A model generated the notes under the pieces. It saw nothing but the letters and a program-made list of their open reading frames with translations. It did not search any database and had not been told where the DNA came from. Of a DNA stretch of 64,000 bases, positions 2,647 to 53,162 are shown piece by piece. The position numbers and the translations under genes were made by a program. This DNA comes from Pocillopora verrucosa (lineage: Eukaryota > Cnidaria > Anthozoa > Scleractinia > Pocilloporidae): the NCBI RefSeq assembly GCF_036669915.1, contig NC_089325.1, positions 5,254,900 through 5,318,899 on the forward strand. The letters are read 5' to 3'. Within the stretch, counting starts at the first letter, position 1, and the number at the start of each line of letters is the position of its first letter.

Positions 2647-4202
2647 TTAGACCATAAACCAAACCATCAAGATGGGAACTATGATTGTAGCAGAAACAGC
2701 CCCTGTGATGACCATATCATTTGTGTTACCTGTAATTACGAAAGAAGAAAAAGAAAATTTAAAGTAAACAATGAGAAGTACAAGTACACAAGCTGTATGA
2801 GATTCTAACTGCAGTGAAGCCTGCTGTCAGTCAAGACATTGAGTGGGATGAATTCATAGTTATATTATAATTATGTGACTTTTGTTGTCATTTTACATTT
2901 AGAACAAATTAAAGCAAGAAAAACTGTATAATGAACAGTGTGCTAATTTGTCTCACAAGAAAAGCTTTTTCAGCTAAGACACTTTCATTTGTTAATTATT
3001 ATTCTGCATGAGCATTTCCTCATCACATACACCTTTTTACCTGAAGAAACCCATTCTGTGGGGCCTGAGTCTGTCTCAACTGTTGTCACTTTTGTTGGCT
3101 CTGGCTTATCTGCAATGATGAAAAAGCAAGTTTGTGTCGTCACTTTTTCACATTAAGTTACAATGTAGCTGTTGGCCTTTTCAGTAAACAGATACCAAAA
3201 GTCAAGTTGGAAGTCAATGTGATTCTACCATATAAAAGTGTCCTAACCTAGGGCCATGAGGAGTATTTTTCACAACATAAATGCCTTATCCTATATTCTA
3301 ATTTTTTTCCTCATTATATATGAGCCACAATTTACTTGGTTGTAAAATCACATTTAAGTTGCACAATCACTAAATTTAACTCAGCCTTAATTTTTTACAC
3401 CACCATCAGGGCCACAGTCACTTAGCTTGCAGAAACCTTAGATACAATTTTGAAGTATTCAAGAAATAGCTACATGTAGACAATTATTATTCTGCTCCAG
3501 CATTTCCTCATTAGATACACCTTTTTACCTAGTGAAGAAACCTGCTCTGCAGGGCCTGAGTCTGTCTCAGTAGTTGTCATAGCTTCATGCAAGCAAAGAT
3601 GCTCTTTAGATATATACACTAGGCTTACTGAGATAGAAGCACATTCTAAGGAATTTTATTTAAAACAACAATGGAGGCAACCAGGATATTCTCTCCTCTA
3701 GGTGCTCCACATTTTCTTGTAAATTGGTTATGAGAATTTGGTGTTTCATCAAGGTAATATCTTGTACCTGATAATTTCAAGTATTCTCGCAACCCATTTT
3801 CTGGATAATGTATGCATGTTACAGGGGAGAAGTTGCATGTTAATTACTTCTGGGAGTTAAAAGGTTAAAGTAAGTGATCTGACTCTACCTTCAATGAAGA
3901 GCATGAAACTCTTTAAAGGTTGGCGTGTTGTACAGTTATGGTTAGTTCCTAAGCAGTATGGATATAACCTGTAAAAGCCCTCCATGGACTTGGTAATCTC
4001 TTTTAATGTTATATTTAGAGTTTTGTCTCCTGAATGTCTAAGACAATAGTTTTTCTTGCACCCAGGTACCTCATTGTAACAGGCACCACAACCATCTTCT
4101 CATTCTAGGAGCTTGATCAGGTGGGTAACAGGAGAGCCTTCACCAAGGTATACATAATTAGCTTTTTGATTGTTAAGTGATATGTTTACCATCATACGGG
4201 AA
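2647..4202 (-). pseudogene. Receptor 1: Ig-domain membrane receptor remnant
   Basis: Three minus-strand exons join in phase 1. An Ig-like exon (3889-4202) ends in FMLFIE. A Thr-rich stalk exon (3041-3109) reads KPEPTKVTTVETDSG. A final transmembrane exon (2647-2729) reads VITGAVSATIIVPILMVWF and stops after two more residues, so there is almost no cytoplasmic tail. The Ig exon is homologous in layout to the second Ig exon of receptors A, B and C, with a Thr/Asn-rich strand then GFYRLYPYC in place of GRYLCIKYS. It contains an in-frame TGA after HLIKLLE, and its best acceptor does not give the usual phase 1. A decayed second stalk copy lies near 3527-3585. No signal-peptide or first Ig exon was found upstream. 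Probably a broken copy; a sequencing error at the stop is the alternative. Confidence 0.55.
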
Positions 4203-5465
4203 CTGTTGAGAAAAGAAAAAGTATAACCAAATTAGATGTCATATTTGTCGTACACTTATACAATTCTTGAGACCTTGGGCAACTAAAAGATATATTGAAA
4301 CATATATTGCTATTTTAACCTCAGTACGTACCTGGACATAACCAAGAAGCTGCCTTAAATTTGTTAGAGAATGAGTTACTAACTTACTATTAGCTGTAGG
4401 TTAAGAACAGGGGTGGGAAATTTATTCTTTGACACCTTCAGTGGTCACCATGAGTTTATATTATTCAGTCAAAAGTCAAAAGTGATTCTCTCTGAAGGCC
4501 TTGTTTTTGCTGATAATGTCCTTGTGAATGCGTTGAACGACTGATGTTTAAGAGCCAAAAACATGCAAATCAGTTAATAGGTAAATTATAAACAGAAACA
4601 TATTTTTCACCTACCACTACAGTTCTCAACACTCAGGTTGACAGCTCGTACACATGTTGGTGTAGCTGTTAATTAAATGAAATATTGTGATTCCTAAGTC
4701 TTTTGCAGTAAAAAGTATTTGCACTTTTTTAATAAGTCGTAAAATCCGACTCTTTGGAGAGTCGTCATGATGTAAGCTTCTTTGAAAGATCCTGTGATTC
4801 CACTTTGAGCCTCTAGTCCTAAACCACAGGGTTGTGGCAATGAAATAGATTGTATACTGCCTATCAAAGTGTCATCCCTTCTGTGAAAGGATGGCACTAC
4901 TATGGGATGCATGGGTTTAACGCTGCAAACAAATGTGACGCGTTTCATTGCATATGCCCAATCGTGACTCTGAAAGTTCGATTAAGAGTCCTACAATCAC
5001 ATGATAGTAAATGTCAGCATGCGATTTTGATAGGACGAGGTCGTGGTGAGACCAAATTTGCATATTGATGTGCGCGAGTCAGCAAAATATCATGACCACG
5101 AGGTTCTCGTGGCTCACGCGAATTCAATTTTCTACCAGCATACTCAGACCAAAATTATTGAGGTTTTTTTTGTCTAAAGTGAACAAAAATGATTACCTTA
5201 ACGGAAAAATACCAATAGACTTTGTAAAATGATAAAAAGATCACGATCTATGTCGACATTTAAAAATATGAAACTTACGCATGGTCGCATTCCCGCCGCG
5301 CTCTAGTCTAATATTTTGATCCTTGACGCGAAAATGAAACTGAAACCCTTGAGTCGAACTAAAACCAAAATTTGTTGTTATTACACCTACCTCTGTCAAG
5401 AAATATTATGAAAAATTAGACAAGCAGACAAGACGTAATCTTCAGACTAAATTCCAAGACAGTAG
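4203..5465. other. No confident gene
   Basis: Noncoding as far as I can see. A minus-strand segment near 4627-4670 (TPTCVRAVNLSVENC, between possible splice sites) could be a further receptor exon, but nothing else supports it. Confidence 0.3.
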
Positions 5466-6296
5466 AGAGTTTAAGATACGGTCACTACGGACTACGGACT
5501 ACGGACTACGGACTACGGACTACGGTAATACACGGCGAGGACCTGGTTCGAGATTTACTGCGCATGCTCGATAGCACGTGGGTTTCGCAGTCCGTCATGT
5601 GGTTGCAGGCTACGGGGAGTAGTCGAGGAGATTCGCGTAGTGAGGACTACGTAAGTATTTTTTTGCCGATTTTTGACCAGTTTTGAGCTTTATTGTTGAG
5701 AAAATGTTAATTTTACTTTCAATTAACACAAAGCTTAACAAATCTAAGAGGAAAGTCATTTCTGAGAAAAATTATGAATTTTAAATTAAAATCTTAATTA
5801 AATCGAAATAGCGGCATGGGTATGCTAGTCGTTTTAGCAGTAAACAAAGTCCTTCTAAGCCACTGCAAACTGTTCCCTGTGGGCACTTGAAACTCGCCGG
5901 AATCCGCAATGCGTTCAATAACATCGGAATATCATCCTTGGCCACCCTGAAGTGAGCTTCGCACTCGCAAGAGTCGAACACATCCAAACAGAATGGATCA
6001 AAATTCCAGTACGGAAATGAAGGATTAACGGGTTGGTAATAATCGTAAAGAACAATAAACTCTTCATCATCCAGAAAACCATCCGCATAAGCGATTAAAA
6101 GGGCGTTTCTAGCATCTTCGAAGGACATTTTTTTTTCCAAGTGCAGCCGTAGTCCGTAGTCGTTGTCACGATCTTAACGTCAAACAACACTCCAATTTTC
6201 GCGCCCTTTTAGCGTAGTCGGCCCAGTCCACGCGTGGCTTGGATTCTCACGCCCAGACGTAGTCCGTAGTCCGTAGTGACCGTATCTTAAACTCCC
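5466..6296 (-). mobile_element. Truncated PIF/Harbinger-type DNA transposon
   Basis: About 831 bp with terminal inverted repeats that read gagtttaagatacggtcac at the left end and its complement at the right end. They continue into ggactac heptamers (about six copies at 5484-5525). A TAG triplet flanks both ends, a candidate 3-bp target duplication. Inside is one minus-strand ORF matching the start of HARBI1-like transposase-derived proteins. The nuclease part is absent, so this is a non-autonomous deletion derivative. Confidence 0.75.
5781..6140 (-). pseudogene. HARBI1-like transposase N-terminal fragment (119 codons)
   Basis: The ORF starts at MEKKMSFEDARNALL and includes FDPFCLDVFDSCECEAHFR and a helical stretch GLEGLCLLLKRLAYPCRY. 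That is the N-terminal helical region of Harbinger-derived nucleases as I know the family. It ends at a stop soon after FDLIKI, where full-length members continue into the DDE nuclease. No catalytic residues remain. It lies wholly between the terminal repeats of its element. Confidence 0.7.
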
Positions 6297-6349
6297 TAGT
6301 AACTCGGGGCAGTGATGTCACTAATGTGCGTGACGTTATGTGCTTTGAA

Positions 6350-6585
6350 TTACTGTGAGTATAGGAAAATCATGTATGTGAACTGCGGACTAAAGAAGTA
6401 AATATGAAAGCGATTATCGCAGTAACGAACACTACTTCAGCAGCGAAAAGAAGGCTTGAAAAAAATTCAGGCCTTTACAGGAGTTGAACTCGTGACCATT
6501 GCGATACCTGTGGAACGCTCTACCAAATAAGCTAACAAGCCAACTGGGAGCTGGTCACTACGTTGGCTCCAAATAAACCCGTAAA
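6350..6585 (-). mobile_element. tRNA-derived SINE
   Basis: On the minus strand a tRNA-like head has an A box (tagcttatttggtagagcg, 6516-6534) and a B box (ggtcacgagttcaactcc, 6480-6497). It is followed by a body with gcctgaatttttttcaagcc and a tail ctgctgaagtagtgttcgtt. A second, headless tail lies at 6595-6690 and another at about 29238-29330 on the plus strand. Confidence 0.75.
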
Positions 6586-6881
6586 GTGATGAATAAATGA
6601 CTGTGAATCTAGGAAAATCACATATGTGAACTGTGGAAAAAGAAGTGAACGTGAAAGCGACCATCACAGTAATGAACACTACTTTAGCAGTACAGCGCTT
6701 TGTGGTATAGTCTTTCTTTGAAGACTCAGGGGTCTAAAAAAAGATTCCAGTCTGACAAGGTTTGTTGAGACTGTGTACAACAGCTCCCAAACCTCGGGAA
6801 AAAAGCGGGATGGGTCCTTTACCTTCTGTTAAGAGTTCTTTAGAAGATCAGATGATATAAAAATGTCTGTTTATAATAATT

Positions 6882-7009
6882 GACTGGTTTGTCTTATAAA
6901 TTCTGTTGCGTGACGTTATGTCAAAGGGAGGGTCCCCTGAAACTAAAGTATAAAGTATAAGGGACTTTGACCTTATGTCACGCAACAGAATTTATAAGAC
7001 AAACCAGTC
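6882..7009. repeat. Perfect 33-bp inverted repeat (hairpin element)
   Basis: Arms 6882-6914 and 6977-7009 are exact inverted complements starting gactggtttgtcttataaat, with a 62-bp spacer whose edges also pair imperfectly (tatgtcaaaggg). Fold-back MITE-like element. Confidence 0.85.
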
Positions 7010-7522
7010 GGAAATTTTAACGCAAGCGTGATTTGGAGATTTTTTTGTCACGTGAGTCGTGATTTAAAATTTGATTTAAATAAACGTGATTCGTGAATGA
7101 AGAGATGAATCAAACGTGACTCGTGAACCATTTTGTTTTGCGCGATATATCTCACTCTATTTCGAAGAGCCAAACTCGGAGGATTAAGAACTTTAAAAAC
7201 AGGTATGAAAGAGTGAACATTTTAATTGGTGAATCTGGCTTTTATTTTTAATTCGAAACGTGATCATCTTGAATTTCACGTGAACGTGAAAGAATTTTGG
7301 ATATTATTTGTGGTGCGTGAAAAGGCCAAGAACTTTCTTTGCGTCACAATATAGTCTTACACATTCGCTATTGGGAAGACAAAGAGCGTATACTGTGTCC
7401 TTATTAGGACATATGTTAACGTTACAAGTTCGTGGTCGTTTCAAACCAAACCATTTCAAAATTTCTAAACCACAAGCACGGAGCGGGGGTTGGGGGGGGG
7501 GGGAGGGGGTCATTATATATCA
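7010..7522. other. No gene; G-rich tract
   Basis: Nothing coding seen. A G-tract of more than 15 bases with single interruptions lies at about 7488-7509. Confidence 0.5.
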
Positions 7523-7643
7523 TCATATTTTGTAAAACTGATGTTCAATGCTTCCTCCGTCCACGGTGAAGGGTGTGTTTTCTAGACGAGTACTGCTTGT
7601 AAGATCAATATTGCTCCCAATACTTGACATACAGGCTGAATAC
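7523..7643 (-). CDS. Orphan candidate 3' terminal exon
   Basis: Acceptor tttttcag is followed by one base and 40 codons ending in TGA. The reading includes MSSIGSNIDLTSSTRLENT and a C-terminal HQFYKI. It could be a cytoplasmic-tail exon of receptor A, whose transmembrane exon is otherwise missing. A weak hydrophobic segment (LRIICFTVIDMVVSVLLL, minus strand near 7790-7855) has no good splice sites. The assignment is uncertain. Confidence 0.25.
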
Positions 7644-9349
7644 CTGAAAAAGAATGAAACGTATGAGTGACTTTAATTAATTAAGGGAATCAAAACTAAC
7701 AAAAAGAAATTTTTTTCGTATTTCCTAATTTGTATAGCCTAGAGATTTCACCTCACACTATTTCAAAATATTAGCATTTTTCTTTCTTTCTTTTTTAATT
7801 CAGCAGCAATACACTCACAACCATATCAATAACAGTGAAGCAAATTATTCTCAGTCCTAGATATCCTACATTTTGACTCGCTTCTCCATCGCACTTCACT
7901 TTATTTGAAATTCAGCGCCTACATGGTGGCTAAGCGCTAACTTGTAAAATAAGGCCTGAACTGATATTCTCTTGCTGTGCATTTTACCAGCTGTTTCAGT
8001 CCTTTCCTGCCTTTACACACCTGAGCATACTGCAAACCGCTCTTGTAATTCCTTAATTACGACTTCATCCTATACAGCACTACTCTCGCCACATTATTCT
8101 ACGCAAGTACCACGCACCCACAGACGATCCTCTGTGCAACTCGGCACTACTTCTGTGCACTCAACGCCTAACATCTCCATCGGACTCTTTTCCCACAGCA
8201 ATCTAACACATTCGACAACTTAATTCCATTACTCACAATCTGATGTTACTCACAATCTGATGTTACTCTACAGCACTCTTCATCACTCACACACAGTTTA
8301 CACTTCATCCCCATCCAGATTAATTCATGCCATTCCACACCAAATAAAACCCTGTCTCACCAAAAACAAGCTAGTTTAATTGTATAATGCACTAGTGCAG
8401 ACTACAAAAAGTCAATCCCACCTGCGTCCACTGTGGCTGACGACTCTCCTAGTACTTTGCTCCTCTTTAACACCACCTAGAGTACACTATAAGCCACGTT
8501 AAGTCCCTCCACGCATGATACATGGCTCATGCTGCACTACGTACATTCCACTCCACATCGTTACAATCATTTTCAAATTTAATCCAACCACTCCATGCAA
8601 CTTCAGGCCTATACTTCTTACGAAGTCCTTGAACTTACCAGCCTGCGAGTAGGCCCTAGTTATTAGCGCTGCGGGACGCGCGTTTCTCTGCCCGCATAAA
8701 GATTGGAGACGAGTCGGGGAATGGTTTGCTGCGAGAGTCTGGATCGCCGTTTTGCGTAGCTCAAAGTCTCATAATTTCCCACGAGCTCGTGCCGAAGAGT
8801 TGATAATAAGGGCCTTCTCGACGACAATGCATTTACCGCTTTACAACACCACTCTACATTTAACCGTTCCCTTCTGTGCATACTTTATATTATGACTCTA
8901 TCTTTTCTTACTCTACTTTCCTATCGACTCATTTTCTGGACTCTTTTACTGGTAGGGCTTACAATCGATACTTACTGGAATAACTGCTTTTTGCCCTGGG
9001 AGCTGATGTTTCATCGTCAATTATTTCTACAGTTGGTCTCTCTAATAGAAGACATAAAAGAAGATGGCAAAGATTAATGACAAGTTGAAATCAGCACGCT
9101 GGAAATTTCCTAAGATAAACTGATTTTAAAACAGCGCATGGGTGAGAATTTTTTTTTCTTTTTCAGGCCCTACCAGCAAACTCAAAGGATTGCACCTGGA
9201 GCAGCTAAACTTATCACGGATTAAGTTGAGCAAGTAATTTCAAAAGAACAAATGAAAGAAAATTCATGGTCTTTCTTAAATTCAGCTCTGGTTAAAGATG
9301 GGCTGGCTGTAATGTCAGTAAATCATTCAAACATACTTGCTTACGTTAC
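7644..9349. other. Noncoding, left part of segmental duplication unit 1
   Basis: From about 8340 this matches 20665 onward (shared caagctag, gtgcagactaca and ctggatc contexts) and marks the left edge of the duplicated block. The stalk and transmembrane exons of receptor B lie outside that block. No supported exon here. Confidence 0.5.
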
Positions 9350-11309
9350 CTTGTACATTAAGATCGATTTCCTCGAATGTTGTATTGTAGAGCCCCGATG
9401 AATACTTTATACACAGGTATCGACCAGCATCTTGAAGGGTAACATTTCTTAGTTTGAAAGAAACGTAAGTTTCGTTCACTAAGAAGGAATCATCAGAACA
9501 GGGTGTAGGTTTTGGAGTAACATAATGAGAGCAACTGAATCTGTTATCTTCTCTGTTCATTCCAATAATGAAAATGCTTGTGTTATCTTTTTTGAGTGTG
9601 TACTTGATACGGTCAGCAGTTCGGTCGTGTTCCGATCTTGTAAACGATAGTTCAAAAGGTTCCATCATGTAGGCTGACTCTAAAAAAAATTAGAATATCA
9701 GAATTTTGAAGTCTACATTTCATTAGTTTTATAGGGTTAAGGATATCACTGAATTAATTTGCCTTACCTTTACGGACAATCGAGCTGCCATTTTGAACCA
9801 CGTACGAGAGTCCTGGTATGATAACAATCACAGAATCCTTGAGCGGCAGCTGACTCAAGCCAAGCTCAACATTCACTCCGTACATTCCCTGATCTTGGAT
9901 AGCAATGTTTTTCAGAATGAATGTTAATTTGTATTTTGAGTGGCTCCAATCCATTTTTCTATCAAATCCAGCAAGAAAGTTTCGCCATGTATAGATTTAT
10001 AAATGCCAAAGCTGATTTCGTAAACGTCTGGAGCACCAAATGGGCCAACTGGATTGCCTCCCAAATCGTTGAATGAGAAGCTCCAGCCCAGAGCGACGTC
10101 GTCATCTAGTTTGGCCTTTATTGTACGGTCTGGTATGTCCCCTGTGAAGCTTATACTACAAGCCACTATTAAAAATAAATATCAAGGAAATGAGAAAATA
10201 CAAAATCAAATGATTAATAATTAATTAATAGAACAATCAATTCAGGCGTAATTTTGTAAGTTATGAAAACTTTAATGCGACTCGTTTATCGCTGAGCAAT
10301 CATGACCTGTAAACGACTAGTTTAAATTGTCTTGGTTTTTCTTAAAACATATTTTTTCAACTCACTCTCTACTCAAATGGTCAACAATTTTATTGGCACC
10401 TTCTCTGATTTACAACTCGTGTCAATTACTCTTTTCCATAATCAACAGTTCTCTTTTTCCAACCCAGCACACCGATGTTAATGCTTTTCATTTACCAGAC
10501 GATCATCAAATTTCCGTGGTGATCCACTATGTCGCGAAATAGCACCATCATGTTAACGCATTATGCTTGGCCACCAAATCCTCTTTTCGATGCGATCAAG
10601 TTCATATCGACGGGTAACCGTTCTTTGCTTGTTTTTTTCTTTTTTCTTTTTCTTTTTTTTTTTTTTTTTCAAAAAATTTTGAATCCAGAAATCTGTTTCC
10701 ATCGATTGTTGAGGTTTTTTCTTCTCGAGAAATACGTCCTCCAATCTCATCACTACGTATGTTGTTGACAACATACGCTAAAATTGTCGGGTTTGGCGCC
10801 GCTAGAGACGTGAAACCCATCCGGCCACTCGTCGAATTCTTCAGAAAGTGTTTAACAATTTTCTCCTCGTCGTTTGCCTTGGTTCTGCTTCGCTTAATGC
10901 CTTTGAGCTGGGTTATTTTAGTCTCGTTCGCAGTCGTTTTACTTGTTGCTCGTATCATATATGATATTTCCGAGAAAAGCAGTAAGCTCTTGAAAATCAG
11001 TGGCTGTGGATGCCTTCAGAAATATCTTCTAACTCAGTAGCGAACGATGAGTCATTTCAAATAATTCTAACAATTGTGTGGTAAGTTTTCAACGCAGCGC
11101 TTCGAACCTCAACTTTGTTGTCGAAAGGCACGAACATATTCGGAGCATCACTTTCCGATCTCACTCTTTAATTTCAAAGCTTTATAGATTCTATTTTACT
11201 TACTAACGTTATCATCTCCTCGTACATGCTGCCAGCATTAAAACTTACCTTGAAGCAATGTCACCATGCAAAAACTGCCGAAGGGAACTTTGCGCAAACG
11301 TAAATCCAT
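9350..11309 (-). pseudogene. Receptor A: two-Ig receptor copy with frameshift
   Basis: Exons on the minus strand: signal peptide 11249-11309 (MDLRLRKVPFGSFCMVTLLQ), Ig1 9768-10165, Ig2 9350-9679. The splice sites match those of receptor B. Relative to B, Ig1 lacks 49 bp near 9960-9970, between FGIYKSIHGETF and the KMDWSHSKYKL strand. That shifts the frame into a stop after about 13 wrong codons. Ig2 (330 bp) is intact: MMEPFELSFTR, paired-cysteine region TPCSDDSF, and the Ig signature DAGRYLCIKYSSG. No stalk or transmembrane exon is seen next to it, because the duplicated block ends first. Most likely a pseudogene. A truncated secreted product is possible. Confidence 0.75.
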
Positions 11310-13544
11310 GACAGCCATTATACATATGTCGAGTTAGCGTTTTCATTGAATTGCATCATCCATGCGCTATTGTAATAATGACAGTGCATTTTCTTGGGTT
11401 TCCGGGAATGCCCTGTAAACATCTTAAGAGTATCAGATGTCTGTAAAGAAATTTAATCAGTTCAACTGAGGAATCGTGTCGATGTTCTACTTTACGAAAT
11501 AACCGTACTTCAGGGTACAGTGAAATCGCTATGTCTTAGCAGGTCCTTGAAACCGTAGAATCTTGAACCAACTGAATTAAGAGCCGAGATCCTAGAATCG
11601 CTCGGAATGTCGGCAGAAACAAGGAATCGAAGAGTCTCAAGAGGTTTGCATGAAGTTTTCCGCGGAAGTTTGGTCAATATTTAATTTCTGACAACCGTAC
11701 TGTCCCCATAATTCAAAGGGGACAACATATCGATTTTATAGTATGCACAAATTTGGGTATTTTGTCTATCAAAAGACAAGCATAATTTTTTAAGATCACT
11801 TGATATTGTCAGATGTGATTCTTAGAAAAGTTTTGATTGCAGGGAAGCCCGCTCTGTTGGGCCTTCATGGCGTGACACGTCAACAATGAAATTCTGAGAA
11901 GTGTCTTTCTTCATAAAGCATCCTGTCTACCTGTGATTTTTAACTCCCTTAACTCCCAAGATGTCTAAGGAATTCTCCTTACTGTCTGCCATAAACTACT
12001 AATCATTTCAATTTGGAGAATTTGGCATTGGATCAATTTGTAGTCTCCCTTCTTCTATTTTCTCCTTACTCGTCTGCTTGATTTTGTGTTGATATTGTAA
12101 GGAGAGATTCTGTCTTGGTCACTCATAGGAGTTAAAGGGTTAAGCAGCAGGAGCTTGATTTAGATGGTGACAGAAAAGTTCTTAAAAGTTCTTACTCTCC
12201 TTACCGTCAACCATACAATTCTTACAATTTTAGTTCAAATAATTTAGTATTGGATCGACTCATTGTCCCCAAATTGATATTTTTCTTTGTTTCATCACTT
12301 ATCTGGTTGATAATGTATTGATATTGTAAGGAGTAATTTTCTCTTGGTCACTCCTGGGAGTTAAAGGGTTAAAACTTATTTTGGCGTCTCTCCAGCGAAT
12401 CTTGATGTGTTTTTGGTAAGGCTTCGTACACTTTTCTGATTCTCTCACCAACAGGTAAATGCTTCCGCATTCTTCTGAACCGTATGCGACTCCTATCCTG
12501 TATTTATAGCAAAAGCTAAAGCAAACTAGACTCGATGAAAGTTTATCTTAGTAGTGTTTATAAATTAAAATGGAGATTACTACAAGGGTTGGTTGTCGGG
12601 CCAAATCAAATTGTAATTCACCCTGCATGTAGCTTCCTTTATTGCTTGAAGCTCGAAGGCTCTTTCCGTTTTCGAGATTGTTCACTGAAACGACAGGATT
12701 GTACTTATAAACATTTCTAAAAGAAATGAAAAGGCACATCATATTTGATTAAACTGTTTTGATAGTTTTTTACGGAATTCATTGTCGACCGTTTGGTACA
12801 ATCGCCCTTACTAAAAAGGCAAATCTTTTGCATTTTATGATATCTTGTTCTATAACTCTTGGATACAAGGAAACGTGTTGTTTAAAAGTGTTGCTTTGGA
12901 AAAAAAAAATATGTATATATATCTATACATGTAGCGCAGAAAATTGTATTCTTGCTTTATTTACCAAAGTTAGGCCAGATTACAGGTTTTAATTTTTAAA
13001 AGTTCTCTCCTATCAAGCCTTTCCATGCCAATTAAGGTAGCAAACAATTCAGTTGCAAGTTCTTGGAATTTTTTCAGTGATTGGGTTGTGTTCCGAACTA
13101 ACATTGTAAAACAAGGATTTTGAGTACCGATGCACTCATCAAATAGGTGCGTCAGAATGTTATTCAAAGACTAGTAGACGATTTTTGTCAAAGCAACTCA
13201 TTTCTCATTTTCTCGATGAGAAAATTTTGTCCCGTCAATAACATGAATCGATCTGTTTTAAAGTTTTCTATTTTTCCTTAGCAATCATTTTAAAGCACGC
13301 TTATAGTGTACTACAATAACGCAAGTTTTATTCCTAACTTACCAGAACTATCGGGTCAGTGGAGACAATTTAGAGGCTTAGGAGCAGAAACCGGCAGGAA
13401 GTTGAGAAAGAGAAAAAATTGGAGAAATTGTATCACTACTTTCGTTACTATTTCGGCATACCAGCTAATGATGCATTCCATGATAGAGTATGATCAAGGT
13501 ATACTGTTCAGTCACTAATCCGCAGCCTCCTCATCGACTCTGGG
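11310..13544. other. Intergenic, with MITE-like repeats
   Basis: Contains two copies of the 210-bp TTAA-ended repeat (about 11940-12143 and 12190-12372). No supported exon. Largely alignable by eye with 23860-25850 of the second duplication unit. Confidence 0.5.
11940..12372. mobile_element. Two TTAA-ended MITE-like repeats
   Basis: Two consecutive copies end in ggagttaaagggtta. The second lacks its 5' end. Same family as 1973-2183 and 24527-24746. Confidence 0.55.
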
Positions 13545-43400: not shown

Positions 43401-46400
43401 AGATGTACAGGAACCCCACACGAGAGCCCAAGATATCCACGATCAGTGTTAGCTTCTACCTCCAGGAAGGAGTCACCATACACAAAAGTGCAGAGCAACA
43501 CCAACTGGGAAGTTCCCGGCGAACGCTTGAGACTATTTAAAAGGATCGGTGGTGGAACATTCGGTCAAGTGTGGGAAGGTGCGGTGTTGGATGTGCGTGG
43601 TACTCAAGGCTGGTCTATTGTGGCTGTTAAGATGCTAAAGGGTATGTGTTACTGCTAACAAAATATAAAAATGCCTATAAATCCGTACTGACTATCGACA
43701 GCTTTTAATGCGAAAGGATGAAGCGTTACATCTTATACCTCAGAGCGGTGCTTGCATGCACTGCTAAAAAAACTTAGATTCGTAAATGATGTTTTCTCTG
43801 AGATAACTAATCTATGACTGGGAAACGTTACATAATCATGCAGTTTCTACTTTCACTATCTCTGCCACACAGAAACACATGTTATCATTTAAAACCAAAG
43901 GGATAATGTTACATTAAAACTACTAGAAAGTTAAGATTCGGCTCCGTTTTGTAATGAGTGAGGAGTTCGTCGCATGTGCTGTTGGATCATCAGTAATAAG
44001 AATCGATAAAGGCACATTTTTATGCAAGCAATACTTCTTCAAAAAGGAGGAAAGAATTTTGTGTCATATCAATAAGTAAATGAGGAGGTAGCAAGTCGCA
44101 AATTAATCGGGGAACTCTTTACTTGTGTGTAAGAATACGCTACGTATTTAAAGCCTCACAGCTAAAACTTAAAATGAACGAATGAACAAAATTTAGTTAG
44201 AAATATTGTAACTAAAGTTTTCATAACATTCGCTGTTGCAGAAAATTCCTCGAAGTCGGATCGAATGGATTTGTTGTCAGAGCTGGACCTGTTGAAGAAA
44301 CTTAAACCTCATCCTAACGTAATACAATTGTTGGGCTGCTTGACGAAAGACGTAGTCCGATGTAAAGGAGGGCGAGAATTTAGTGAGTTGGATTATTTCT
44401 ATCCTAAATGAGCAAAGTAAACAGTCGGAAGGAAAATGCCAGTCTTTGTTGTGTCAAAACTGAAAAATATGCAACCCGAAGAGATTTGACTTCCTTGTTT
44501 GCTATTGTTGCTTGTTTGTTTGTTTGGTTTTTTTCTTCATAACCACATCCTAGTTGCGTTTGTCGACGGGATGAGAGAAGGATGGTCGTTTTTACCTCAG
44601 GTATTGTTGTTTCAAAAACCAGGGCTTATCAGCAATCACAAAATAAATTTTATTAGCGGCTTAATGCAGTTATTTGACTGCTAGAGTCACAAAATAATTC
44701 ATCTTTGTCTATTTCAGAACGCTATTGCATAACTTAAACACCAACGATTCATTTTCTTTGCATATTCAGGGCCGCCGCTTGTTATCCTGGAGTTTGTATC
44801 TCATGGCGATCTCCTTGGATATCTAAAGAAAAGTAGAGGCGAGACAGATGACTACTACGACGTTAAATGCGCTGAAACTTCATCGAAAATACCAACAGAA
44901 CAACTTTACAAATTCGCTTGTGATATTGCCCGGGGAATGGCGTTCATATCGGCTCACCAGGTGTAGCATTTCACTTAATCTGTTCCATTTTTATGACACG
45001 TGATATATTTAAAAATTACTCAGCGATATATTTAACAATTAAATATCTACCGCCAGCCACTACCACTGAAATGAAAAGTTGTGTAAGTGTAAACTTAAAC
45101 ACTGAGATAACATAGCACAAAAGATGATTTTATCTAATTTATTCCTGCAAAGATTACAATATTTTCGAGCGCAGGTTCAGCGCGAGTTGCTCGGAGGTGA
45201 ATAGCAAAAGATATTTGGAGTTTGAGAAGCCAATCAAAACGCGTCTTCAACACCATCCACGGTTTTAGCATATACTAAACTCAAGTATACACTTTTTCCA
45301 TACGTGATATTTCAATTTTTATACTTCTAGCTTACATACCAACAGACATTTACTCGTGTTAATAGCGCTTAAGAGGAAACTAACTAAAGTTGGACAAACA
45401 CGAAGTTAAGAATTAAGAATAAGAGGTGTAATTGTCAAAATTGGAAATACAACAGTTCAAACTGAACTGCGAAATCCCTCGTGGAGGTCAATTCTCAATG
45501 AATAACGATAATTCAAAACGATGGTGATGAGAAATTTATTTCACGAGGTTAAACACAGGGTAAAATATTATTCATCAAATTGTTTGTTCACTTGTAGTTC
45601 GTTCACCGAGACTTAGCAGCGAGGAACGTGTTGGTTGGCGAGGGTCTGCGCTGTAAAATCACTGACTTTGGAATGGCGAGAGATCTTGGCAAAGATAAAA
45701 TTTATGTCAGGAGGTCGAATGTAAGTAAGCATGTACCCACAAACAGGTTCGGTGAGTGCGCACTGCTTCCCACCACCCCACTCTCCCGCGACCTTTCAAA
45801 TTCGTTACTTCTCAGACTTGATCACATTGACCCTGGTGTCTCAGGCTTGAGGAACTTAAAAAAAAACTTTGTTGACAACTGAACTCACAAAACACTTATT
45901 CTGGTTTTATACCGAAGGTGATTAAATTGTTATTGCGTTATTTTACAGGGAGTTGTACCAGTGAAGTGGATGGCAGTTGAATCACTAACAAAACAAATTT
46001 TTACCGCAGAGAGTGACGTGTAAGTAGATCGATAAGCTTGAATTAAAAGTGATAGCACTTTCCCAAATGGATATTTACTCAGTGCATTTCTTAAGAGTTC
46101 AATGTCTCTTTAGCGTGAAATCAAATCTTCATGTTTCCCATCCGACTGTTTCCTGCTGAACAGTTACCTGATCATGTAAGAAAGCGAGAAAAGTTCCTTG
46201 TATACGATAGACTTTTCGATAGTCTACATTACGAGAGACTCTTCGCAAACCAAAAATAGTGATAATCTCCTGAGACAGATAGCGGTAATATGATTTTTTT
46301 TTCTCAGTTCGTGAGCGGGCGGTACTCTACAAATCCTGCAATCTGATTGGTTTCGAGAGCGGGCAGTATTCTCCCCATCCAGCCCACTCACAGTTCTTTT

Positions 46401-48117
46401 CGCAACCATTTGTTAGGTTTTAGAAAAAAATAAAAATGTTATTCACCAGCCAAGGTCGGTCTGTATTGGGAAAAACTGTGCCCTCTGTCTTGGATACCGC
46501 CCGAGGCCGTACACAAGACAGATGGCACAGTCTTTCCCAATACGGACCGATCTTGGCTGGTGAATAACATATATATATACGTAGTACTTTTTTGTCTTTC
46601 TTTTTGTCTTTCCCTTTTTTTAGGTGGAGTTATGGCATCGTCCTACATGAGATATTCACACTCGGTAAGTGGATTTTTCCAGGTTTGTGGGAGACTTGAG
46701 GTTATTTGGACTCCAATTTCAAGCGTCGTCAATTTTTTTTTTCGGAGTAAAAACAGTAATATGGCGGAGAAAGCCAGAGGATAACACGATATCAGCTTAA
46801 CTAGGTCACCTCTTTTCGAGGAGACCAGACAATCAATGTAGACTGTTAAACTGGAATGTCAAGTGCGATCGTGAGGGGCTGGTATCGAACCTGCTAACAG
46901 AAAGTATGACTGTGATCATTCGGGAATAGTAGTTCCTTTTCAGAACTACCATATCACGGACGAGTAGACTACACAATCAACTGCTGCTTCAGGTTTCAAA
47001 CCTTTCACTCCACTGAAAAGAAAATTTGCAAGTCTGTTATCACTCAGTACTATCTTTTCTACAGAATCTTTTTTTTTTCAGCTTTCTGGGAGCTGACATC
47101 TTTTAAAGTCTTCGCAAAAAAACTAACTTATACTTTTATCTTTGCAGGGGGGAACCCTTACGATGGAATGAGCGGACAAGAAGTATTTACATACGTGTCG
47201 CATGGTCACAGATTGCGAAGGTCGTCAGGCGTGAGCCGAGAATTGTACGTAGAACACGTTCCATCTACATTCACACTTATCAATAGGCCTTAATTACAAT
47301 AAATGTTATAGAACGCTTTTGGATTAAGTGTCTTAAAAAAAAAACAAAAATAATCATTGCGGCTTATCAGAAGAAAGAAAATATCTCAAAGAGCCAATCA
47401 GATCTCAAAGTAAAACGAGCAAACTGCCGAAAGCGTGGGAAAACGCGAGTGATGAATTTGTGATTGGTTTCAGTTTTGAATTTGATTGGTTGAGAGAGAA
47501 GCGCAACTTTTCTGGACCAGTCAAATAGCAAAGAAAAGCAAAACCAGTACAATCCGGATTACTTTCGAAAATCAATTGAAAATTGCTGTATTAAAAGCTA
47601 TAGTTGAGGAGGTGCTTTGCCTTCATGTAAGTAATTCTCCACAAGGTTCTACTAACCTAGGGAATAGATCTTTATTTTACCTTGCGTTCGTATTATTCAG
47701 GCTCATCGCCACAAATGTCATTTTAATGACGGGTTTTGGCCCAACTATTCAAATCGTCATACCATTTGTTCTTTTACTGAGCGGCTGGTTACATCGAAGC
47801 TTGGTGAGAAAAACCGACTCAGGACTTCACAAATGTCTTTAATTGGTTACGTCTTGTTTACCATGAGGTGCGGTTTATAAATCACAAATTTTCCTGAATT
47901 TAAAGCAGTTTTGATAATTGGGGTTTTGGGTTTATCCCGCGAAAACCGATCATTAAAGCAGAAAAAGGCAATGCTTCTACATTCATTCGGACAAGTTATT
48001 ATCTTGACAACATAATCACTTGATTCCCACAGGTATAAATTGATGCTTCGGTGCTGGGACCAAGAGCCATCCAGGCGACCGACATTCGAATCAATTACGT
48101 CTTGGATGGAAACTTAA
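34419..48117 (+). CDS. Receptor tyrosine kinase, Ig-Ig(-Ig)-FN3 ectodomain
   Basis: A complete multi-exon gene whose exon phases join throughout: signal peptide 34419-34473; Ig1 36656-37039 and its duplicate 37827-38210; Ig2 38496-38753; FN3 39889-40227; transmembrane 40660-40827; juxtamembrane 41397-41446, optionally 42022-42117; cytoplasmic repeats plus kinase start 42342-43641; kinase 44242-44361, 44770-44960, 45598-45720, 45949-46019, 46624-46664, 47148-47244, 48033-48117. The kinase has a glycine loop [11 protein letters not shown], lysine in [22 protein letters not shown] and [14 protein letters not shown], so it is expected to be active at the plasma membrane and to autophosphorylate on Tyr. 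Closest to the FGFR/RET/Cad96Ca-like group by motif. The ligand is unknown. Oddities: duplicated Ig1, APE motif read as AVE, and almost no C-terminal tail. Confidence 0.93.
35872..36345 (-). mobile_element. Penelope-like element 3' fragment with GIY-YIG domain
   Basis: Minus strand reads the end of the reverse transcriptase ([13 protein letters not shown]), then after a deletion the GIY-YIG endonuclease start [19 protein letters not shown] and [25 protein letters not shown], and the C-terminal block [15 protein letters not shown]. Downstream is an untranslated segment with a ctgatgag...cgaaac core. Frames are broken and the element is dead. A C-tract near 36103-36117 interrupts it. Confidence 0.8.
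35897..35945 (-). ncRNA. Hammerhead-ribozyme-like motif in Penelope-like 3' region
   Basis: Minus strand has ctgatga (35939-35933), a potential stem gtcact / agtgtc with one mismatch around loop aagtagg, then gaaa (35912-35909) and the self-complementary acgt. This is the minimal layout described for hammerheads of Penelope-like elements, where a palindromic helix III pairs only in dimers. Helix I pairs poorly (cc with gg, then a mismatch), so activity is doubtful. Confidence 0.4.
36656..37039 (+). CDS. RTK exon 2a: Ig1, first copy
   Basis: Phase 1-1 exon of 384 bp, V-type Ig-like: [40 protein letters not shown], and [19 protein letters not shown]. Followed by donor gtaagt. It carries its own copy of the Ig2 acceptor and 12 exon bases, then breaks into Penelope-like sequence. 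Confidence 0.85.
37341..37515 (-). mobile_element. Second copy of the Penelope-like GIY-YIG fragment
   Basis: Same [19 protein letters not shown] reading as at 36171-36260, carried along in the 1170-bp tandem duplication and not by a second insertion. Confidence 0.85.
37827..38210 (+). CDS. RTK exon 2b: Ig1, second copy
   Basis: Identical in translation to copy 2a as far as I compared (one synonymous change, tct to tcc). Because the exon is symmetric phase 1-1, both copies can be spliced in tandem or one skipped without a frameshift. Confidence 0.88.
38496..38753 (+). CDS. RTK exon 3: Ig2 (I-set-like)
   Basis: Acceptor tttgcag, 258 bp, donor gtaaat. Contains [20 protein letters not shown] (first Cys and Trp) and [19 protein letters not shown]. 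The second Cys of the usual Y.C position is read as Val with a Cys in EDCGDY, so the canonical disulphide may be shifted. Confidence 0.88.
39889..40227 (+). CDS. RTK exon 4: fibronectin type III domain
   Basis: 113 codons, phase 1-1, with the FN3 landmarks [19 protein letters not shown], an NVT glycosylation site, [20 protein letters not shown]. Downstream acidic and Thr-containing linker leads to the membrane. Confidence 0.85.
40660..40827 (+). CDS. RTK exon 5: transmembrane segment
   Basis: Phase 1-1, 56 codons. Helix [20 protein letters not shown] followed by the stop-transfer stretch [10 protein letters not shown]. Confidence 0.88.
41397..41446 (+). CDS. RTK juxtamembrane exon (candidate)
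   Basis: Needed to move from phase 1 to phase 0. Acceptor ttttgtag, 50 bp reading [16 protein letters not shown], donor gtatta (weak). Fits both flanking phases. Confidence 0.45.
41646..41885. repeat. Interspersed repeat in RTK intron, orientation 1
   Basis: Contains ttgctattcaccgctgagca and a following aaattagtcaagatcatctt. An inverted relative lies at 45049-45300 in another RTK intron (ctcggaggtgaatagcaa). Family unknown. Confidence 0.6.
42022..42117 (+). CDS. RTK optional juxtamembrane exon (candidate)
   Basis: Phase 0-0 open segment of 96 bp between acceptor tttccag and donor gtcagc, reading [20 protein letters not shown]. Could be a cassette exon. Confidence 0.3.
42342..43641 (+). CDS. 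RTK cytoplasmic repeat region and kinase N-terminus
   Basis: A 1300-bp exon, phase 0 to phase 1. It begins with three 71-residue repeats (42354-42992), continues with a low-complexity region with a PVPKPR stretch that matches the PxPxPR SH3 ligand pattern of CIN85/CD2AP, and ends with [13 protein letters not shown] and [10 protein letters not shown], the ATP-binding loop and lysine. Confidence 0.92.
42354..42992 (+). repeat. Coding tandem repeat, 3 x 213 bp
   Basis: Units start at 42354, 42567 and 42780. Each opens with SLEREP and includes [12 protein letters not shown], ending FSSRENYE (third: FSSRESYE). Each unit has one tyrosine in an acidic context. Confidence 0.95.
44242..44361 (+). CDS. 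RTK kinase exon: alpha-C helix
   Basis: Reads [20 protein letters not shown] and [11 protein letters not shown]. The Glu of SELDLL is the probable salt-bridge partner of the catalytic lysine. The 3' boundary (donor gtaaag) was chosen by phase. Confidence 0.85.
44770..44960 (+). CDS. RTK kinase exon: hinge and insert
   Basis: Reads [20 protein letters not shown], an acidic Tyr-rich insert DDYYDV, and the helix [18 protein letters not shown]. Phase 1 to 0. Confidence 0.9.
45598..45720 (+). CDS. RTK kinase exon: catalytic loop and DFG
   Basis: [31 protein letters not shown]. Phase 0-0. All catalytic residues are present. Confidence 0.93.
45949..46019 (+). CDS. RTK kinase exon: P+1 loop
   Basis: [19 protein letters not shown]. 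The usual APE of this loop reads AVE. Confidence 0.92.
46436..46570. repeat. Inverted-repeat MITE in RTK intron
   Basis: Arms of about 55 bp: atgttattcaccagccaagg at the left and its complement ending gaataacat at the right, with tattgggaaa / tttcccaata inside. Confidence 0.8.
46624..46664 (+). CDS. RTK kinase exon: alpha-F helix
   Basis: 41-bp exon reading [13 protein letters not shown], phases 2 and 1 fit both neighbours. Confidence 0.92.
47148..47244 (+). CDS. RTK kinase exon: alpha-G region
   Basis: [19 protein letters not shown]. The donor gtacgt after position 47244 was preferred over one 4 bp later, because only this one keeps frame with the last exon. Confidence 0.88.
48033..48117 (+). 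CDS. RTK last kinase exon
   Basis: Reads [18 protein letters not shown] and stops after SITSWMET, leaving no tail beyond the kinase fold. Confidence 0.92.
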
Positions 48118-50460
48118 ACGCATCCTTTCTGTACAAAAATTCGGAATACCTCGCAAATTATAAGCTAGGCGTAATGTATAATATATAGATTTAGCCAAGC
48201 GTACAAGCGGACCTCTTATTAGCTTTATTTCCAGCCCTTCATTTTAATTAAAAAATGTAAGAAAACTCTTCAACACTGGCTGTAAAAGAGTTTTTTCAAG
48301 GGGATTTGGGGACGAAGTCTGGAACCTGGAGACGATGTCACAACTTGCAAAGCGATGAACACGCATGCTAGTCAGCGGTAAAGTCAAGCAGCTGAGGAAC
48401 TTTTTTTTATTGTTTCTGTTAAGAGCAAATTTTCGAAGATGGGGAATGTATCTCCTTCAGTTGGAGTGTATGATTTCAACACCAGTTGAAATTAAATTCT
48501 ATTGAGCGTGACTGATAATTTCGGTTTGGCAAAATGAGCCAAAATTGAAAGAAACGACGTCAAACTACTTCGCATTAGACATCTCCGGTCGATTGAAGAG
48601 TATACACGTGAGAACAGTGAGTCAGTAAAATAATATGCCAGAATCGTATAGGCTTCTCATATCTTCTCTTGAAATTGCCAGGTATGACTGCTTGCCCCAC
48701 CGTTTTTCTTTAACGTTTCAACCTGATAAGCGTAGAAAATTAAAAAGAAAAGTCATTTTCAACTCGTGTTTGAATCTGTTATTTCTTTTTTTACTTTTTC
48801 TGACTTTTGGCTATTCTTGATTCATGATTGTCCTCTAGCTGGAAAAACACGGTGTCTTTTAGAGATTTTTTCTGTTATTTAATACGGCAAACTCTGCTGT
48901 AACTGCATATAAAGTAGGTGTCTTAAAGCCAACTGTCTATGATCTCAGTAATTCCAGCTATGGAAATACGAAATTTGTTTAACATGTTTCTTGCGCTGCG
49001 AAAGTTTGTTTAAAGGAAGACAAGCTAAGCTAAGCTAGAACCAGAATACCATGATTAAAACTTGATGACGAAGAGAGACTTAGGATTCGACGATGAAGAC
49101 ATTTGTAGAAAGCTTGAGATAATACCTGGATTTCATTTGTACATCACGGAAATCAATTCCAAACATCAGTCAAGTTTTCTCTTTAGTTTAAAAGTGGAAT
49201 TGATGTCGTTATTGGCTATATTAAATAGGTTGAAAAGTTTTAGATGGTTTTTCTCATGTTTGCAAATAATTGAATTTGCTGGATGGTGGATTTGTTGCAA
49301 CGTGTTAACATGAAATACAGCGAAAAATCTTACTGATATAAAAGTTTCGTTTCGACCATCTACTGGCAAACCTTTGAATAATATTTCAACCCAACCATTT
49401 TCCACAAGTTGTAACCACCATTACATGTCCATAATAAACTAACAGGATCGAGGAGAGTGCATTTGGGAATAGGCTCTGTTGTCTGTATCATTAAGTTGCT
49501 GATCGCTTTTGCAAGTCTGCGCACGCATTTATCCTTTGCCTCTTTGGAAGGCTCTCGGAGCTGTTTAACTGTCATCTGTACCTTCAGATACGTTGCAAGG
49601 CGTTTATGAGAACAACCTGCTTTTCTTCACATTGCAATTGAAGCAGGCGCACCCTCTGGTTCATCTCAGTCTCAATAGCAACTTTGTCAATCGTGGTTGC
49701 TGCACGTTGCCATAATGCCTCTTTCTGGTATCTTAGCTGCTGCTAAATACTGCAGCACTGTTCTGTGTATTTGGTGTCTTGTGTTTTCGACAAAGAAAAC
49801 AGAAAACGCCAGTGCCATCACCCCACCTCCCCTACCCAGATTAAACTATTCAGATCTAGAATGGGCAAAAAATAATTAAAAATTATGTACGCAAAGTACG
49901 GAAAGTTTTTTCCACTACAACTGCTTATCCTAATTCACAAACAAAATGGGAAAACATTTATTACATCACCACAATCATAATAATGTCTCCTGCTAACAAT
50001 AATACTCCTAAAAACCACCCAGTGCCATCACCCCATCTCCCCCTAACCAGATTAATCTATTCAGATCTAGAATGGGCCAAAAAAATAATTAAAAATTATG
50101 CAAAATATGCAAAGTTAATTTTCCACTACAACTGCTTATCCACATACCACAAACAAAATGGGGAAACATCTATTACATCATCAAAACTATAATAATGTCT
50201 CCTGCTAACGAACTACTCCTAATTGTTATAATATAGTCATCTGTCTAGTTAAATATTTTTTAAAATAATAAATTTTACAGCTTGTGCTGGCAAGACATAA
50301 TACAAAATATCCATTCATATATGATTTCTCAAACTTGTCTGGCACAGACAAACACGTACACTTTACTTGTAAATCCAGATGAAGTACCAATTAATAGGGG
50401 AATATTCACATTACAGTAAAAATGATTTGCCTCCACAGTAAAGGTCAGCATGATATGAAA
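48118..50460. other. RTK 3' flank and receptor C 3' flank
   Basis: No supported exon. A minus-strand frame at about 49360-49620 (LREPSKEAKDKCVRRLAKAI) looks coding-like but is unrecognised. Two tandem copies of a 200-bp receptor-family 3' flank lie at 49806-50005 and 50021-50222. Confidence 0.45.
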
Positions 50461-53162
50461 TTACAAAGGAACCTTTTCTTCAGTAGTTGTTGTAGTTTTA
50501 GATTTTTTTCTCTTGCAACGTGAGCAATAACAGCAATAAATAATCACTCCAATAACTATGGCTGCAGGAAGAACAACCCCAATGATGACTGCATGATTCT
50601 TGTTATCTGTATCTGCAAAAGAAAAAGAAATGTTTTAAAACCAAGAACCCCAAATTTGACATGTTCTGTCTATTTGCAACAAAAAAACTACTAACAGTAC
50701 CTGAGTGTATGTTTATTTGTGATATATGAGTAGCTGCCTCATAGTGTGTAGTAGCTTAGCAGTAAATTAAGTATAACTAAATGTGTGAATCAATTTGCAG
50801 ATGAACTAAATTTATTTTATACTCCATATGATGGAGCTAACTTCACCCTCCATCTTTTTGTTAACCATTAGGTGCCTAAATTTAATCCTCAATTTTTCAT
50901 CCCAGCTACATGAATAATGCCTTTTTACCTTTAGAAACTGTACTGGTTGTAACTGTTGTAGCCTGCGTTGAATTTGGTTTACCTGCAATAATGAAAATGG
51001 GAAGTCTGTAGCATGCATGCTAAGTAAAAAAAAAGGAAAAAGATTCACACTTGTAAGCCTTATGAGATTCTGGCTGCAGTGAAACCTACAGTCAGTCAAG
51101 GCATTGAGTGGAATGAATTCATAATTATAATTGATACTAACCGGAATAACTGCTGTTTACCCTGGGAGCCAATGTCTCATAATTGATTATTTCTATGGTT
51201 GGTCTTTCTGATAGAAGGCATAAAAGAAAATGGCAAAGATTAATGACAAGTTTGAATCAGTACACTGGAAATTTACCAAGATAAACTGATTTTAAAACAG
51301 CCTATGGGTGAGAAACATTTATTTTTCAGGCCCTACCAGCAACTTTGAAGGGTTGCATCAGGAGCAGCTAAACTTATCACGGATAAAGTTGAGCTAGTAA
51401 TCATCAAATATCAAAAGAAAAAATGAAACATAATTAATGGTCTTTCTTAAAGTCAGTTCTGGTTAAGGCTAGCCTGGCGTTAGTGTCAGGAAATCATTAA
51501 AACATGCTTGCATACGTTACCTAGTATGTAAAGATCAATTTCCTCGGATGTTATATCGTAAATCCCTGATGAATATTTTGTACAGATGTATCGACCAGCA
51601 TCTGGAGGGGTAACATTACTTAGTTTGAAGGAAATGTGAGTTTCATTCATGGAGAAGGAATCATCAGAACAGGGTGTAGGTTTTGGAGTAACATGATGAC
51701 AGCAACTAAATTTTTTATCTTTTCTGTCCTTTGCAATAGTGACAATGGTTGTGGCACCTTTTCTGAGTGTATATTTAATACGAACAGCAGTTAGATTGCG
51801 GTCTAATCTTGTAAATGATAGTTCAAAAGTCTCCATCATGTAGGCTGACTCTAAAAAAACAAAAAAAAAAAGTAGAGTATCAGAATTTTGAAGTCTTCAT
51901 TTCATCAGTTTTACGCTGATATAGGGTGAAGAATACCACTGAATTAATTTGCCTTACCTTTACGGACAGTGGAGTTGCTAGTTTGAGTGTACGAGAGTCC
52001 TGGTATGATACCTTTAGGACTTGTACAGGTTGTAACTGTTGTAGCCTGTGTTGAGTTTGGTTTGCCTGCAATAATGAAAATACGCTGTCTGAAGCTATGG
52101 ACTCAGTCATCAACGACAGAAGATCAAGTCCTGGTATGATAACAATAAAATCAAACAAATGAGAAAATACAATATCAATTAGTTGATAGAACCAATTCGA
52201 GTGAAGTATCTTAATTTTAGTTTGTATGTTTACCAATTTAAAAGTAACATTCACAAGAGTTTTAACTATCTTTAAAAAAAAGAACCCAAAATTTGACATG
52301 TCTATCCGAAAAAAGAAAAAAAAACTACTAACAGTACCTGAGAGTATATGAATTTATGATATATGTGTAGCTGCCTCTTGGTGTATAGTAGCTTAGCAGT
52401 AAACTAAGTGAAGCTAAATGTGCGAGACGATTTGCAGAATAACTGAATTAGTTTTAAACCCAATATGATGCCGCAAGCTTCACCCACCATCCTTTTGTAG
52501 ATTAGATACCTAAATTCAATCCCTAATTTTTCATCCCAGCTGCATGAATGATGTCTTTTTTACCTTTAGGACTTGTACTGGTTGTTACTGTTGTAGCCTG
52601 CGTTAAGTTTGGTTTGCCTGCAATAATGAAAATGGGAAGTCTCTAGCATGCAAGCTGAGTGGAAAAAAAGGGAAAAGCTTTTTCCTCGTTCCTGCTTCGT
52701 TCAATACCTTTAAGCTAGGTTACTACAATCTTGTTCGCAGTCGTTCTCTATGATGTCACGCAGCGCTGCGTCAATTTTGAATTGCTAGTTGTTCGTATAA
52801 TGTATGATATTTTCAAAAAAAAGCAGGGATTAATTCGAAGCTCCCGAGTAGTTGAACAAATCAATGGCAGTGGACGCCTTCAGAAATTACTTCGAAGTCA
52901 ATAGAGTACGATGAGTCATTTCAAACATTTCTAACAATTGTGTGGTAAGTTTACAATGCCGCGCTTCGAACCACCACGATTTTGTTGCACCAACATAGTC
53001 AGAGCATCACTTTCCAGAATCACTAATTCAATTCCTCGTTTACCTCCTACCGTTATCAGCTACACGCACATGTTGCCAGCATTAAAACTTACCTTGAAGC
53101 AATTTTACCATGCAAAGAATGCCGAAGAAAACTAGGCGCAGACGTAACTTCACGTCAGCCAT
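50461..53162 (-). CDS. Receptor C: single-Ig membrane receptor
   Basis: Minus-strand exons, all phase 1: signal peptide 53093-53162 (ADVKLRLRLVFFGILCMVKL), stalk 52564-52617, chimeric stalk/Ig1-end exon 51958-52065, Ig2 51521-51850, stalk 50929-50982, transmembrane and tail 50461-50612. Ig2 has MMETFELSFTR, TPCSDDSF and DAGRYICTKYSSG. The helix is AVIIGVVLPAAIVIGVIIYC, then a Cys/Lys tail with a TTTTTEEKVPL end. The main part of Ig1 is gone; only its last 18 codons remain, fused in frame behind a stalk exon. Stalk exons read KPNSTQATTVTT and should be O-glycosylated. No stop or frameshift seen, so it may be functional. Confidence 0.75.
52081..52122. repeat. Short hAT-like fragment in receptor C intron
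   Basis: The sequence ctcagtcatcaacgacagaa matches the hAT C-terminal region at 59785-59810 with one or two changes. A fragment of the same element family. Confidence 0.5.

Follow-up and report, generated by a model that had tools for sequence, protein, structure and literature searches.

Receptor tyrosine kinases and kinase-less immunoglobulin receptors in one Pocillopora verrucosa cluster: a candidate paired-receptor-like system

Why does a receptor tyrosine kinase (RTK) lie among immunoglobulin (Ig) receptors that have no kinase? This question is raised by a 64,000-nucleotide stretch of the Pocillopora verrucosa genome, C14:5254900-5318899 (hereafter the window), which holds one plus-strand RTK (RTK1) and five kinase-less Ig receptors on the minus strand (A, B, C, D1 and D2). 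One assembly was analysed (353.4 Mb, 52 contigs), and the gene models are predictions from six-frame open reading frames (ORFs), splice scoring and self-comparison of the window, with signal exons likewise predicted. In this study, we found that an RTK family with Ig ectodomains has been duplicated in place, and that its ectodomain exons, of types Ig1 and X, recur in kinase-less, single-pass, short-tailed receptors.

An RTK family duplicated in place

A first-pass annotation of the window had described a complete RTK amid the receptors, and the kinase of RTK1 bears this out: it matches Pfam PF07714 (8.8e-85) over profile positions 2-256 of 258 and contains the catalytic K, HRDLAARN and DFG motifs. 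When 13 domain sequences were compared, the RTK Ig1 matched the Ig1 of D1, D2 and B with blastp values of 1e-22 to 3e-13. RTK1 shares a homologous Ig1 with A, B, D1 and D2 and is therefore, judging from sequence, a member of the receptor family and not a mere neighbour. That the Ig1-like exons might be unrelated to one another, which the first-pass annotation had named as a refutation, is excluded by these sequences, in agreement with the IgV fold modelled for the Ig1 of a close paralogue (AlphaFold pLDDT 93). Ig1 has no Pfam match, and of the pattern matches obtained when its relatives were sought in viral contigs (102) and prokaryote genomes (91), none was confirmed.

The window is the left edge of a larger, putatively lineage-specific RTK cluster. 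Over about 370 kb of C14, five RTKs and at least 23 kinase-less copies were found, the latter comprising A, B and C, D1-D5, E1-E10 and five copies of type X; the dense, duplicating receptor cluster proposed for the window thus exists and had been understated. The Ig1 of D2 gave 32 matches in the genome at E<=1, of which 25 lie on C14 (24 exons, one split in two, at 5.264-5.619 Mb), two on C2, one on C13 and four on C6; other queries added a partial exon on C2 and additional distant places on C6. The RTK kinase gave at least 70 matches at 1e-12, a lower bound obtained by scoring 135 of 968 candidates. The five RTKs of the C14 cluster account for 21 of these 70, and a sixth, RTK6 at 19.95 Mb of C2, for two. 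The structure of the cluster and the pattern of its copies are well supported by these sequence matches.

RTK1, RTK4 and RTK5 have Ig1, Ig2, FN3 and a transmembrane (TM) segment in common, and a second Ig1 at 5373707 is putatively assigned to RTK2. Among the kinase-less copies, a TM exon adjoins the D copies in five of five cases, and E1-E10 consist of Ig1, stalk and TM, with stalk and TM adjoining in all ten; no Ig2 or FN3 match was found in the E flanks examined. All of the at least 23 kinase-less C14 copies lie on the minus strand, and four of the five RTKs on the plus strand.

The second ectodomain type, X, gives only a weak V-set match in Pfam, and in genome searches neither type recovers the other. 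It occurs at RTK3 (C14:5409154), in the RTK6 region (C2:19948549) and at five more C14 places with no kinase match beside them. X forms the ectodomain of RTK3, immediately 5' of the RTK3 TM/kinase exon, and an X exon also lies just upstream of the RTK6 kinase; in the one X copy whose flank was examined, a TM exon and a short tail follow, with no kinase. An Ig1 at C14:5415584 was set aside as the RTK3 ectodomain, since it has stops and the X exon directly precedes the RTK3 TM/kinase exon. A second, smaller set, on C2 (19.936-20.009 Mb), repeats this pattern: it contains RTK6 and three Ig1 places, and both its E-type TM exon and its X exon carry stops.

Selection, exchange and decay among the copies

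In an unrooted Ig1 tree of 22 rows with long branches, the D copies form one group (93/92), and the E copies form one group of weak support (56/96) beside RTK1, RTK4 and RTK5. The row labelled RTK3 is doubtful, because that Ig1 is broken and RTK3 carries X. A and D4, with broken Ig1, entered neither the tree nor the counts, and the broken D1 and E2 were counted in the selection figures. Pooled over 13 of the 22 rows (RTK1, RTK4, RTK5 and E1-E10; the other nine are RTK1b, RTK2a/b, RTK3, the D copies and B), the ratio of nonsynonymous to synonymous differences (pN/pS) in Ig1 was 0.46, and the nonsynonymous rate (dN) exceeded the synonymous rate (dS) in 2 of 78 pairs. By group, pN/pS was 0.53 for RTK1/4/5, 0.28 for E1-E5, 0.66 for E6-E10 and 0.23 for D (four of five copies). 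Along the domain the ratio lay near 0.8-1.2 over the initial ~30 alignment columns and at 0.1-0.5 beyond them. Within the window, dN/dS between D1 and D2 was 0.24 for Ig1 (bootstrap 0.09-0.54), 0.55 for Ig2 and 0.69 for TM; the intervals of all window paralogue comparisons except D1/D2 Ig1 include 1. The mostly low ratios between paralogues thus indicate that the kinase-less Ig1 exons are held by selection, with some relaxation.

The ectodomain exons of the window are phase-1 symmetric, as had been proposed. Such exons would permit domains to be swapped, lost or doubled with the frame intact, and receptor C, which has lost Ig1, and RTK1, in which Ig1 is doubled, look like products of frame-safe exon exchange. 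Repeated birth and decay, also claimed earlier, is evident: the same block occurs twice, as A+D1 (8.3-15.4 kb) and as B+D2 (20.7-28.2 kb), with pieces of 79-91% nucleotide identity, and B, C and D2 are open across every modelled exon while A and D1 are damaged. The model translations of A and D1 run out of frame because these genes are broken or have no signal exon. On the minus strand, a stretch of A (9753-9970) is near-identical to B (21939-22156) in a gene-conversion-like manner. Over the 3' half of Ig1, A and B agree at every base for 132 bp and again for 85 bp, and 100-bp windows clear of the stretch show 76-96% identity; gene conversion would leave such a pattern, and selection could add to it.

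Possible roles of the kinase-less copies

The juxtamembrane region of RTK1 contains SPYTKV and one YEVL, and SPYTxV stands ahead of the kinase in all three RTKs examined (RTK1, RTK2 and RTK3). The tail of E1 has one YxxI (YNSI) only. With a kinase and SPYTxV in the RTKs and motif-poor tails in the copies, the RTK would therefore be the signaller, and the copies would act via binding. Our leading reading, which we hold to be about as likely as not, is a paired-receptor-like RTK system: the kinase-less copies would either compete with the RTKs or act as their trans partners. The recognition module would be the N-terminal IgV domain, and its ligand may be the IgV domain of a touching cell or a surface molecule of microbial or host origin. 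A ligand-bound RTK would dimerise and signal via its kinase and the conserved SPYTxV site. The kinase-less copies would engage ligands of the same class but send no signal, and would thereby set a threshold; in the manner of paired receptors, they could act as decoys in the membrane, as inactive partners in dimers or as ligands in trans. One receptor family would then yield both signallers and non-signallers, and the kinase/kinase-less arrangement suggests self/non-self or microbe recognition.

In vertebrate paired receptors (SIRP, PIR and KIR type), receptors of one cluster have common ectodomains and different signalling parts. The coral cluster resembles them in that the Ig1 and X ectodomains occur on both RTKs and kinase-less copies; it differs in that its signalling partner is an RTK instead of a receptor with an immunoreceptor tyrosine-based inhibitory or activation motif (ITIM or ITAM). 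Opposed signalling motifs (ITIM versus activating) were not found in the tails of B, C, D1, D2 and E1, and the cluster may therefore be said to work like paired receptors, not to be one such system. The sponge Geodia cydonium has kinase-less Ig adhesion molecules related to its Ig-domain RTK, and we know of no cluster of the coral kind in this species. The Geodia RTK likewise has an Ig-like ectodomain (PMC12018476, which also covers Stylophora allorecognition).

Several points weigh against a paired-receptor-like system. The tails of B, C, D1 and D2, of about 24-41 residues, contain no ITIM or ITAM consensus in a scan of these four, and any inhibition would therefore need competition. Ig2 of A, B and C is compatible with neutrality (dN/dS of 0.98 for A/B, 0.60 for A/C and 0.66 for B/C). 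E6-E10 appear relaxed, their pooled 0.66 including some pairs above 1, and lesions are present in at least five copies (A, D1, D4, E2 and E6), with a stop in the stalk of E8. Four of the five X copies are counted as kinase-less solely from the lack of a kinase match beside them. The direction of change, which we infer to be kinase loss rather than gain, has to be read from an unrooted tree with long branches and the weak E group (56/96).

One alternative is that the RTK family serves innate immunity or symbiont sensing and that its ligands sit on microbes or algae. This account overlaps with the paired-receptor-like reading and differs from it only in the ligand; taken separately, it seems to us somewhat unlikely. 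Even with an immune or symbiotic role, the locus would be a natural experiment in duplicating RTK ectodomains minus the kinase.

A second alternative is an Alr-like allorecognition complex, wherein alleles of the IgV receptors, varying from colony to colony, would pair like with like in trans and settle whether colonies fuse or reject each other. The Hydractinia allorecognition complex (ARC) has 40 Alr/Alr-like genes on chromosome 3 and three putative homologues outside it, and Alr proteins, thought to be homophilic, are highly polymorphic (PMC11876637). Clustered, duplicating membrane receptors of the Ig superfamily, with pseudogenes and V-set-like domains, are features of that system (PMC11876637, PMC11999971) that the coral cluster shares, in that its many genes, some of them pseudogenes, sit largely on one chromosome with a few members elsewhere, and their N-terminal domain has a predicted IgV fold. 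Allorecognition is also shown by corals (PMC12018476). However, the coral cluster has RTKs within the same family, and the passages on the ARC that were consulted name no kinase in it; the likeness is one of cluster layout and fold only. The Ig1 ratios between paralogues are mostly purifying, and no hypervariable loops were seen in pN/pS along the domain, which speaks against such loops between copies and is silent on alleles. Profile and model searches with Ig1 gave no Alr chain among the 60, 50 and 50 matches listed, which is evidence neither for nor against Alr kinship. By analogy, the Alr-like recognition role raised in the first-pass annotation is possible; that the cluster is such a complex is unlikely.

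Ordinary birth-and-death in a tandem array would make the kinase-less copies mainly duplication by-products of little function, so that only the RTKs matter. The lesions in A, D1, D4, E2 and E6, the relaxed E6-E10 and the widespread tandem duplication seen among coral receptor families (PMC10236652, whose main text has no occurrence of "kinase") fit this account. It is nevertheless doubtful to much the same degree as an Alr-like complex, given the open multi-exon models of B, C and D2, the purifying selection on Ig1 of D and E1-E5, and the TM exon retained beside all ten E copies.

A coral self/non-self locus in which the RTK is a built-in sensor, and the kinase-less copies of a touching cell are variable ligands or blockers, is quite improbable; if true, recognition and signalling genes would evolve jointly in one cluster of exchangeable exons. 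That an assembly artefact inflates the copy number is hardly credible, as it finds a footing chiefly in the 99.6%-identical 1.17-kb repeat that carries the two Ig1 exons of RTK1, and the remaining paralogues differ mutually in sequence, flanks and lesions.

A literature search with most subscription papers outside its scope found neither a description of an RTK cluster with kinase-less copies nor a coral histocompatibility gene; PMC8662651 also forms part of the background. As a compact locus of RTKs and many copies of their own ectodomains, the cluster is a specific candidate for coral recognition that can be mapped.

Gene models and neighbouring features

RTK1 (34419-48119, plus strand) is modelled in the order signal peptide, extracellular domains, single TM helix and kinase. 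Its exons are a candidate signal exon (34419-34473), Ig1a (36656-37039), Ig1b (37827-38210), I-set Ig2 (38496-38753), FN3 (39889-40227, a match below the Pfam cut-off at 0.003), TM (40660-40827) and a juxtamembrane exon with a tentative 5' junction (42342-43641), followed by kinase exons at 44242-44361, 44770-44960, 45598-45720, 45949-46019, 46624-46664, 47148-47244 and 48033-48119. Ig1a and Ig1b sit in the 1.17-kb tandem copy, which is either a very young duplication or an assembly effect. At the junction from TM to juxtamembrane exon, the donor at 40827 is in phase 1 and the best acceptor, at 42342, in phase 0, so that the phases disagree; an acceptor at 42352 was dropped for want of an AG. 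The juxtamembrane exon contains three 213-bp repeats in frame (42353-42989). The best single-domain matches of the kinase in PDB were RET (263-268 bits) and then FGFR (about 232-236 bits), and the match of lowest E-value was a tandem EGFR construct with 145 bits per domain. FGFR carries Ig domains, and RTK1 resembles RET/FGFR-class RTKs in its complete tyrosine kinase, single pass and Ig domains. It differs in having a Pfam-less IgV domain, I-set and FN3 together with the three juxtamembrane repeats, and "RET/FGFR-like" refers to best PDB matches only.

The minus-strand receptors and RTK1 span 2647-53162, from the TM-exon stop of A to the signal-exon ATG of C, and the bounds given in the first-pass annotation agree exactly with the exon models. 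Minus-strand Ig receptors were confirmed here, as five units and not the six counted earlier, since "receptor 1" forms the 3' terminal part of A. Near-adjacent segments of B, 20331-20631 and 20655-21330, pair in self-comparison with A 2762-3070 and A 8330-9127, on both sides of a ~5.3-kb insertion that interrupts A (3071-8329), and "receptor 1" was therefore rejected as a separate gene. Among the Ig1, I-set and V-like matches listed, none that passed the inclusion threshold fell between 2.6 and 9.3 kb. An orphan plus-strand TM exon had also been reported; a strict scan found none on the plus strand, and a looser one gave that of RTK1 itself and three weak candidates at 30671, 52018 and 58622.

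Receptors A and B have the order signal, Ig1, V-like Ig2, linker, stalk, TM and short tail. The pseudogene-like A (2647-11318) has its signal exon at 11249-11318, Ig1 at 9768-10165, V-like Ig2 at 9350-9679, linker at 8976-9041, stalk at 3041-3109 and a truncated TM exon at 2647-2729; its Ig1 has a 49-bp deletion relative to B. The open model of B (19540-23855) comprises signal 23795-23855, Ig1 21954-22400, V-like Ig2 21524-21853, linker 21203-21244, stalk 20233-20286 and TM with short tail 19540-19703. Assignment of the B-type Ig2 to the V-set rests on a sub-threshold Pfam match, with an AlphaFold model of low confidence (pLDDT 44.8). Receptor C (50461-53162), also open, follows the same order minus Ig1, with signal 53093-53162, stalk 52564-52617, a fusion exon (51958-52065) that joins the last Ig1 residues onto a stalk, V-like Ig2 51521-51850, linker 51142-51207, stalk 50929-50982 and TM with short tail 50461-50612.

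The D receptors have the order signal (a candidate, in D2 only), Ig1, I-set Ig2, TM and short tail, with AATAAA nearby. D1 (13545-15228), a likely pseudogene, has Ig1 at 14842-15228, I-set Ig2 at 14334-14607 and TM with short tail at 13545-13747; its Ig2 shows a 2-bp loss relative to D2 and a weak donor, and no convincing signal exon was found. The open D2 (25859-32718) has a candidate signal exon at 32667-32718 (alternatively 31905-31959), Ig1 at 27661-28047, I-set Ig2 at 26623-26898 and TM with short tail at 25859-26088, shortly 3' of which AATAAA was seen by eye.

Other elements were noted in the window. The insertion in A contains a 130-aa ORF without a Pfam match (5781-6173) and an Rfam tRNA match (6469-6541). 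The modelled first intron of D2 holds an element at 28274-31064 whose 152-bp ends are inverted relative to each other (94%); it includes a reverse-transcriptase-like ORF, identified by eye, at 28389-29162. An inverted pair of ~300 bp (88%) lies just upstream of C at 53182-53485 and 57875-58174, and a 127-bp tandem repeat occurs in three copies (96%) at 1119-1493.

Outside the window, more B/C-like TM exons lie on both strands at C14:5235586, 5241359, 5249196, 5338697, 5345954 and 5357863, with no Ig exon near these six in an Ig-exon scan, and a partial E-type tail lies at C14:5441041 with no adjoining Ig1 match. At locus L023 (C13:11667290-11667649 and on), one ORF fuses an RTK2-like Ig1 to a cysteine-rich tail, which ends in CCSEDLCNGA and has no Pfam match, and a hydrophobic end; we take it to resemble a Ly6-type protein with a glycosylphosphatidylinositol (GPI) anchor. 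GFP-family matches were found at 74 places, every one on C1, and in none of 14 control genomes, which fits an anthozoan; C1 has two large arrays of them, at 0.67-0.88 and 28.36-28.79 Mb.

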